Part shown: in pieces, positions 14,537 to 15,547 of the stretch
Layout of the letters: each line of letters opens with the position of its first letter
Numbering within the stretch: the first letter of the stretch is position 1
DNA from: a virus
DNA: 30,632 bases
Virus record (IMG/VR): IMGVR_UViG_3300034355_000842
Location: 1-30,632 of that record
Strand: one strand, 5' to 3'
Notes under the pieces: model-generated
Databases searched by the model: none
Seen by the model: the letters and a program-made list of their open reading frames with translations, nothing else
Told to the model about the DNA's origin: nothing
Made by a program: the position numbers and the translations under genes

Positions 14537-14619
14537 CGGGGATGTATCTCAACGGTCTTCTAAACCGTCGTTAACCGAGTAATTGGAGTATGCAGGTTCG
14601 AGTCCTGTCTTCCCCGCAA
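14537..14619 (+). tRNA. tRNA-Arg(TCT) lacking a D-arm, extended acceptor
   Basis: Acceptor GCGGGGA with TCCCCGC is extended outward by AATATATT pairing with AATATATT, 15 bp in all. Anticodon arm ACGGT-CTTCTAA-ACCGT and T-arm GCAGGTTCGAGTCCTGT are perfect. Only nine bases separate acceptor and anticodon stem, so there is no D-arm; instead 23 bases, including CGAGTAATTGGAGTA, lie between anticodon and T-arm. No CCA. Directly upstream of a homing endonuclease. Confidence 0.75.
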
Positions 14620-14641
14620 TATATTTTTGGTAGAGAAAAAA

Positions 14642-15421
14642 ATGTCTAGGAAATTAAAAAATGCTATTCCGTCATCAAAAAGTTTAGTTTGTTGTTTGAA
14701 ATGTAAATCAACAGTTACTTCTATAAATTTTTCAAAACATTATGATAGTAAATTATGTAATGGTGGTGGAAAATTTAAAATAGAAAATCTTATTAACTGT
14801 AAGTATTGTGATTTATCGTTTGTTGGATTTTCCGCCACCAAAAAAGCGAGTCATTCAAGATGGTGTGAATTTAACCCAAGATCAAAAATTGATAAAGAAA
14901 ATCTAGCAAAGAGAAAGAATCTTTATCCAATAAAAGATAAAGATTCTTGGAAAAATTCTATTTCTGATGCCCATAAGCGAGGTTGCTATTCTAATTCCAC
15001 AGAAAAAGGGTTACAAACTAAAATAAAGAACGGAACTTTATACCCAACAGAAGAAACAAAGAAAAAGATAAGCATTGCTGCACAAAATTCTGAACACCAA
15101 AGGGTTTGTAAAAAATCGCATAAATTTGTTGATAAAATAGGAAGAGAATTTATATTTGATTCTTCTTGGGAAGATGCCTTAGCAATAAGGTTGGACGAAT
15201 TAAGTATTGATTGGATAAGACCACCTCCAATCAAATATACGTTAAACGGAAAAAGTAAAAATTATTTTCCTGATTTTTATCTTCCTGGATTTAATCTTTA
15301 TCTTGATCCTAAGAATTCTTATTGTATAAAAGTTCAGAAAGAAAAAATAGAAATAGTATCTAAACAAATAAATTTATTGATATTGGAGTCTCTACAAGAT
15401 TGTAAAAATTTTACAATATAA
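14642..15421 (+). CDS. PD-(D/E)XK (Vsr/EDxHD-like) homing endonuclease (259 aa)
   Basis: N-terminal region with two C-x2-C groups (CCLKCKSTVT, CKYCDLSF, each followed by His/Cys), likely zinc-ribbon DNA-binding modules, then a helical linker with TKKKISIAAQ (NUMOD3-like). C-terminal domain: FDSSWEDALAIRLDEL, WIRPPPIKY, YFPDFYLPGFNLYLDPKNSYC, the E...PD...DxK order of phage Vsr-type homing nucleases. The start is the ATG at 14,642; the upstream in-frame TTG is not needed. It lies between tRNA-Arg(TCT) and tRNA-Lys, both abnormal. AT-rich. Confidence 0.85.
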   Translation: MSRKLKNAIPSSKSLVCCLKCKSTVTSINFSKHYDSKLCNGGGKFKIENLINCKYCDLSFVGFSATKKASHSRWCEFNPRSKIDKENLAKRKNLYPIKDKDSWKNSISDAHKRGCYSNSTEKGLQTKIKNGTLYPTEETKKKISIAAQNSEHQRVCKKSHKFVDKIGREFIFDSSWEDALAIRLDELSIDWIRPPPIKYTLNGKSKNYFPDFYLPGFNLYLDPKNSYCIKVQKEKIEIVSKQINLLILESLQDCKNFTI

Positions 15422-15433
15422 TAAAAGAATATT

Positions 15434-15462
15434 GGATATAATCGTAAAGTCTAGAAATATAA
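15434..15462 (+). promoter_or_regulatory. Anticodon-masking leader of tRNA-Lys
   Basis: GGATATAATCG is the exact complement of 15,507-15,517 in the tRNA variable loop, and AAAGTCTAG of 15,490-15,498 in the anticodon stem and loop. Both helices nest in one fold, leaving 8 bases bulged. In the unprocessed RNA this would occlude the anticodon. Confidence 0.6.
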
Positions 15463-15547
15463 GGGGCGGACGCCGAATTGGTTGCGGCACTAGACTTTTA
15501 ATCTAGCGATTATATCCGAGTGGGTTCGAATCCCACTCGCCCCACCA
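15463..15547 (+). tRNA. tRNA-Lys(TTT) with variable-loop insert
   Basis: Acceptor GGGGCGG with TCGCCCC; anticodon arm CTAGA-CTTTTAA-TCTAG; T-arm GTGGGTTCGAATCCCAC; CCA encoded. The variable loop is 13 bases (CGATTATATCCGA) where Lys normally has five, and 11 of them are complementary to the 5' leader. Confidence 0.92.

Follow-up and report, generated by a model that had tools for sequence, protein, structure and literature searches.

In a 30,632-base virus fragment from IMG/VR (record IMGVR_UViG_3300034355_000842), the whole of which is referred to here as the window, 23 transfer RNA (tRNA) genes are recognised by ARAGORN and two further ones by Rfam only. One of them is a tRNA-Lys(UUU) gene preceded by a short leader that is complementary to the tRNA itself, and this leader is the subject of the present analysis. 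The gene lies on the plus strand at 15463-15547, is 85 nucleotides (nt) long with an encoded CCA and A73, and is called with anticodon TTT both by ARAGORN and by Rfam RF00005 (52.5 bits against a gathering score of 29), in agreement with its fold. Its anticodon stem-loop CTAGA-CTTTTAA-TCTAG occupies 15490-15506 (anticodon 15497-15499) and is followed at 15507-15519 by a 13-nt variable loop, CGATTATATCCGA, without an internal stem. The leader, GGATATAATCGTAAAGTCTAG, is found at 15434-15454 on the same strand directly 5′ of the tRNA and consists of segment V (GGATATAATCGT, 15434-15445) and segment A (AAAGTCTAG, 15446-15454), with an unpaired spacer (15455-15462) running from there to the predicted RNase P site, as placed from the tRNA 5′ end.

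A preliminary description based on the letters alone had claimed 20 nested complementarities between leader and tRNA, 9 with the anticodon stem-loop and 11 with the variable loop. All of these were recovered when 15434-15547 was folded with RNAfold, together with one additional G-U, giving 21 nested pairs. Segment V pairs with 15517-15506, comprising the variable loop and the last anticodon-stem base, through 11 Watson-Crick pairs and the G-U, variable-loop positions 15507-15517 being the exact reverse complement of leader positions 15434-15444. Segment A forms 9 Watson-Crick pairs with 15498-15490, that is, with the 5′ anticodon-stem strand, C32, U33 and two anticodon bases. The minimum free energy (MFE) of this precursor is -41.8 kcal/mol (z -4.6), and its acceptor and anticodon stems are predicted to be absent. 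Conversely, the RNA returns to a cloverleaf at -31.7 kcal/mol when the leader is held unpaired, and the tRNA without its leader folds as a cloverleaf at -31.9 kcal/mol, which supports the earlier expectation that removal of the leader would release a tRNA with a 13-base variable loop. The leader-tRNA duplex alone amounts to -26.7 kcal/mol, a strength reached by none of 20,000 shuffled leaders (best -23.2 kcal/mol), with per-base pairing probabilities of 0.91-1.0 along the leader and the masked fold favoured from 15 to 55 °C. Stepwise truncation from the 5′ end retained the masked fold for starts up to 15438 and gave the cloverleaf from 15440 on, while in simulated 3′ growth the leader pairs appeared once 35-55 nt of the tRNA were present, ahead of the T arm and the 3′ acceptor strand.

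The same description held that the unprocessed RNA hides the UUU anticodon. The anticodon arm is indeed masked in the predicted precursor, but of the three anticodon bases the leader pairs with 15497 and 15498 only, and in most of the distant homologues its pairing ends at U33. The conserved feature is thus the dismantled anticodon arm rather than a covered anticodon.

Comparison with close relatives further highlighted the pairing. Two loci (L003 and L004) are nearly identical to the window, and a third (L012, on a contig shared with L045) has diverged, with leader GGAATTAATCG facing variable loop CGATTAATTTCC in place of GGATATAATCG facing CGATTATATCC in the window. In two A-U pairs both partners have been exchanged, and a single base is bulged; the pairing is thus kept although the sequence has changed. 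The assignment of segment V rests on RNAfold and these compensated A-U/U-A swaps, and that of segment A on RNAfold and a counterpart helix that covaries in a second, more distant type of tRNA-Lys. Leader and variable loop thus covary in related phages, as the description had proposed for examination. In L045, a tRNA-Arg(UCU) ends 6 nt 5′ of the leader. Other tRNAs resembling that of the window (L134, L160 and L158) have variable arms capable of self-pairing and no leader.

The second type was obtained through an RNase H-like neighbour gene and pattern scans and comprises 19 leader-bearing loci, the tRNA-Lys(UUU) of which differs from that of the window and is characterised by a GGAC... acceptor, U73 and a variable loop such as TATACAACATC. 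Its leaders are about 45-70 nt long and pair with the variable loop and the 5′ anticodon strand up to U33, and in most loci also with the D-loop and the 3′ D strand; that of L137 is close to a complete antisense of the stretch from D-loop to variable loop, with a joint fold of -62.0 against -32.3 for the tRNA alone. The MFE structure is leader-paired in 17 of the 19 loci. As a separate observation, the discriminator of bacterial tRNA-Lys is usually A73, and charging of the U73 tRNAs (e.g. L064, L094 and L123) by lysyl-tRNA synthetase (LysRS) may be weak or unusual.

Sixteen second-type sequences were aligned after removal of internal leader hairpins from four of them, which placed 17 leader-tRNA pairs at fixed columns. 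In this alignment, 87.1% of the leader-tRNA cells are paired, and 6 of the 17 pairs and 18 cells are altered on both sides. The covariation score of 0.232, compared with 0.107 ± 0.015 for shuffled data, was reached in 0 of 500 shuffles and the count of pairs with two-sided changes in 2 of 500; since the sequences share ancestry, such figures overstate significance and describe the strength of the signal rather than an exact probability. Slid registers gave at most 45% paired cells and at most 2 pairs with two-sided changes. The anticodon-stem variants GGACU, GGGCU, UGACU, AGACU and AAACU are met by leader AGUCC, AGCCC, AGUCA, AGUCU/AGUUU and AGUUU, respectively, and a three-way change (C-G-C, U-A-U, A-U-A) links leader column 25 to anticodon-stem columns 84 (5′ strand) and 96 (3′ strand). 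The D-loop helix, analysed in seven sequences, has 10-11 of 12 positions paired against 5.4 for shuffled leaders, and duplexes of a leader with its cognate tRNA exceed non-cognate duplexes in stability by 6.6 kcal/mol (-35.9 versus -29.3), a value as low being found in none of 5,000 permutations. The cloverleaf itself shows two-sided changes at 7 of 21 pairs (RNAalifold, 16 homologues). Leader helices and cloverleaf therefore covary on the same anticodon-stem columns, which argues that both folds are maintained.

These substitutions also bear on the origin of the complementarity, which could have arisen when a template switch or inverted duplication copied part of the tRNA into the leader, with no function and with DNA repair (quasipalindrome correction) keeping the match. 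The window leader taken by itself could be such an inverted copy with a short deletion. Across the alignment, however, 15 of 16 sequences share a G-U pair at columns 27-82, and several changes are wobble-compatible, with L145 and L176 combining the same tRNA with different leaders that both pair by G-U; correction of the DNA would preserve neither. The complementarity is also interrupted in the same way in diverged phages. A mutational by-product is accordingly very improbable, and the conserved and substituted G-U pairs point to the RNA rather than the DNA level.

To assess specificity, leader-tRNA duplex energies were compared with those of shuffled leaders for the 1,479 tRNAs preceded by 30 nt or more of non-tRNA sequence, using a cut-off of z < -4. 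The cut-off was passed by 19 of 125 tRNA-Lys(UUU) genes and by 3 of 1,354 other tRNAs in the same loci, these three being scattered. When only loci unselected for tRNA-Lys were considered, the counts were 5/17 for Lys(UUU) and 1/556 for the others (p 7e-8), and the leader was present on 5/5 long-loop and 0/12 normal-loop tRNA-Lys (p 1.6e-4). Another tRNA precedes the leader at a distance of 3-7 nt in 12 of 20 loci. These upstream tRNAs are of six different kinds, so leader and tRNA-Lys form a module inside tRNA operons and the leader travels with tRNA-Lys.

The link to long loops, together with the early pairing in simulated 3′ growth, would also suit a folding guide, in which a long-loop tRNA prone to misfolding has its nascent 5′ half held by the leader and released as soon as synthesis of the 3′ half is complete, so that the leader would promote maturation and not block it. 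Such a role is improbable: the full precursor remains leader-paired at its minimum, with a margin of some 10 kcal/mol in the window and a larger one in L137, and many long-loop tRNA-Lys genes do without a leader. Indeed, the preliminary description had called the variable-loop insert abnormal, and 13 nt is an unusual length, but long variable loops are common among phage tRNA-Lys, including those without any such leader. The long loop is thus more widespread than the leader and probably arose first. Within the window's own subtype no tRNA with an unpaired leader was found, and it is among distant long-loop tRNA-Lys genes that absent or unpaired leaders occur. In L132, L240 and L129, for instance, tRNA-Lys stands directly behind another tRNA and has no leader. 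None was found on the tRNA-Lys of the Caulobacter phages, DLP_6, X1 and RHph_I1_18; direct searches of cultured phages returned no leader-bearing homologue, and two second-type patterns had no match in 84,980 bacterial and archaeal genomes.

Taken together, these data make it probable that, in several groups of uncultured phages, the leader acts in cis as a conserved antisense element that renders the tRNA-Lys(UUU) precursor two-state, an autoinhibitory switch that delays or conditions this particular tRNA. On leaving RNA polymerase, the leader would capture the 5′ anticodon-stem strand and then the enlarged variable loop before the cloverleaf closes, and in the second type additionally the D-loop and the 3′ D strand. 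The masked state, having neither acceptor nor anticodon stem, would not be seen as a tRNA by RNase P, LysRS, the ribosome or anticodon nucleases. The cloverleaf and the mature tRNA-Lys would arise once the RNA refolds or the leader loses its 5′ part, so that release would depend on removing or displacing the leader. A folded pre-tRNA is what RNase P recognises, and inhibitory leader structures slow this enzyme (PMC10731613); a masked precursor lacking both stems should therefore be held back. The features of the sequence, its predicted folds, the covariation and the restriction to Lys are demonstrated; from them we infer a block to processing, an order of capture in vivo and a regulated release. 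More tentatively, the element may represent an undescribed class of cis-acting RNA, in which a pre-tRNA leader acts as a co-evolving antisense and a regulated switch withholds tRNA-Lys(UUU), releasing it according to the stage of infection or to damage of tRNA-Lys by host defence.

Several points weigh against the switch. The folding energies describe secondary structure only, without pseudoknots, proteins or modification, and two of the 19 second-type loci (L153 and L176) were not leader-paired in the 75-nt context that was tested. The shared ancestry of the second-type sequences inflates shuffle-based significance, the alignment was made after excising hairpins from four of them, and the distal helix with the variable loop is ragged. 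Furthermore, three other groups of long-loop tRNA-Lys (C, D and E) showed no cognate preference in leader pairing; an extension of the family to all long-loop tRNA-Lys therefore failed, and a long loop is insufficient as evidence of a switch.

What the switch might be for is addressed by a proposal compatible with it, namely a shield against AriB- or PrrC-type nucleases: the leader, perhaps still annealed once RNase P has cut, would conceal the anticodon arm and the D-loop and so keep a protected reserve of tRNA-Lys. Phage tRNA-Lys is known to counter PrrC (PMC11555353) and PARIS (PMC12409363), and the element is restricted almost wholly to Lys(UUU), which both PrrC and AriB target. Besides Lys(UUU), AriB cleaves Thr(UGU) and Asn(GUU), and it contacts the anticodon stem and the D-loop, both determinants being occupied by the leader (PMC12409363). 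Long variable loops are enriched in these same three tRNAs (10/84 versus 3/529 other tRNAs, counted over the unselected loci L031-L110 plus L111-L241 and excluding Leu, Ser, Tyr and Ile(UAU)), and Thr and Asn alone remain at 5/59 (p 4e-4); this Thr/Asn enrichment was, however, spotted before being tested, in phages that are not independent. The long-loop Thr and Asn tRNAs carry no antisense leader, and a mask on the precursor leaves the mature tRNA exposed unless the leader stays bound. The tRNA-cleaving nuclease (tRNase) connection is hence attractive if indirect, and protection as the purpose of the element appears rather unlikely. A related proposal is a switch that responds to damage: an anticodon nuclease would cut host tRNA-Lys, and the resulting fragments, on annealing to the leader, would free the phage tRNA-Lys. 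The second-type anticodon helix ends at U33, which would correspond to the last base of the PrrC 5′ fragment, and leader AGUC could pair with the GACU common to tRNA-Lys. Covariation of the leader with its own tRNA nevertheless holds even in L206 and L105, whose anticodon stems differ from the common one, and the helix of the window extends beyond U33, which makes release by host fragments the least probable of the explanations considered, with hardly any weight attached to it.

If the autoinhibitory switch is correct, the consequences reach beyond this locus. Genes for tRNAs are usually regarded as constitutive (transcribe, trim, use), and phages would here control the activity of a specific tRNA post-transcriptionally, that tRNA being the most frequent victim of the known anti-phage tRNases. 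Whether a tRNA can be concealed or delayed as a counter-defence strategy would become directly testable, and the search rule gained, a leader antisense to its own tRNA, is applicable to any tRNA-rich phage.

Other features of the locus were also inspected. Between an upstream tRNA-like gene and the leader lies an endonuclease-like open reading frame (ORF; 14627-15421, plus strand; PHROG 15137 endonuclease, E 5e-13), probably a free-standing homing endonuclease outside the leader element. Because L012/L045 keep the leader without this ORF, it is not part of the element, its absence from L045 indicates a later or separate insertion, and an origin of the leader as a homing-endonuclease scar was ruled out. 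The tRNA-like gene (14538-14616, plus strand, TCT at the anticodon position, Rfam only) apparently lacks a proper D arm and may be decayed; the ORF sits right behind it. Overlap with a promoter was considered, as leader positions 15437-15442 read TATAAT, and rejected: there is no -35 element at normal spacing, a promoter scan was empty at the leader with nearby matches at chance level only, and L012/L045 lack the TATAAT. No intrinsic terminator was found at the leader, and no known RNA family covers it, RF00005 being the only Rfam match to leader plus tRNA in the window and in L168, L206 and L176.

Long variable loops were also observed elsewhere. Another group of long-loop tRNA-Lys (L224-L229 and L234) has a conserved leader with a hairpin of its own. 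The two arms of this hairpin vary in step from one member to the next, as between L226 and L228, and it may be a leader structure of another kind. The tRNA-Thr(UGU) of L075, L167 and L149 has the variable loop ATACAAACAYC, as in tRNA-Lys(UUU) genes, and no antisense leader. A long variable arm, typically containing CAGATAA/TAGATGA, was present in 12/12 tRNA-Ile(UAU) (L097, L098, L099, L040, L041, L044, L056, L057, L066, L075, L078 and L101). In Rhizobium phage RHph_I1_18 (L253, 995-6828), a long-loop tRNA-Lys(UUU) is located near genes for RNA ligase, polynucleotide kinase, CCA-adding enzyme and tRNA-His guanylyltransferase, a tRNA-repair set.

Neither Rfam nor the open-access literature searched (subscription journals and preprints lying outside this scope) yielded a pre-tRNA leader described as antisense to the anticodon arm or the variable loop of its tRNA. 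A co-evolving antisense leader with two mutually exclusive folds is thus likely, though not certain, to be new; leader structures that slow RNase P and nuclease-resistant phage tRNAs are already known. The former, exemplified by valV-valW (PMC10731613), resemble the proposed action of the present element in that structure or pairing of the leader slows 5′ processing in a polycistronic precursor. They act through stem-loops or pairing near the cleavage site, whereas here 15455-15462 is unpaired and the leader pairs as an antisense with internal regions of the tRNA, namely the D-loop, the anticodon arm and the variable loop. The present leader does away with the cloverleaf in the predicted fold, covaries with the tRNA and is confined to one isoacceptor. 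As in attenuators and riboswitches, two conserved, mutually exclusive structures share one strand, each with covariation support; unlike in these, the switched product would be the tRNA itself, and no ligand, terminator or ribosome-binding site is known. A variable loop of at least 10 nt is shared with class II tRNAs and with the long-loop tRNA-Lys of Caulobacter phages CcrKarma and CcrRogue. Such loops usually form a hairpin of their own without an antisense leader, in contrast to the 13-nt loop of the window, which is stemless in the fold and complementary to the leader. Finally, the tRNA-Lys of T5 (against PARIS) and of SP15 (against PrrC170) are likewise phage-encoded tRNA-Lys(UUU) of the class targeted by AriB and PrrC. 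Resistance of the T5 type to AriB goes with A in place of U39, C in place of A41, or both, in the anticodon stem (PMC12409363). The window tRNA keeps U39 and has U at 41, and L105 keeps A41. Evasion could be a role of the altered variable loop, but it need not be. T5 relies on substitutions in the anticodon stem of its mature tRNA, whereas here the novelty is the leader.
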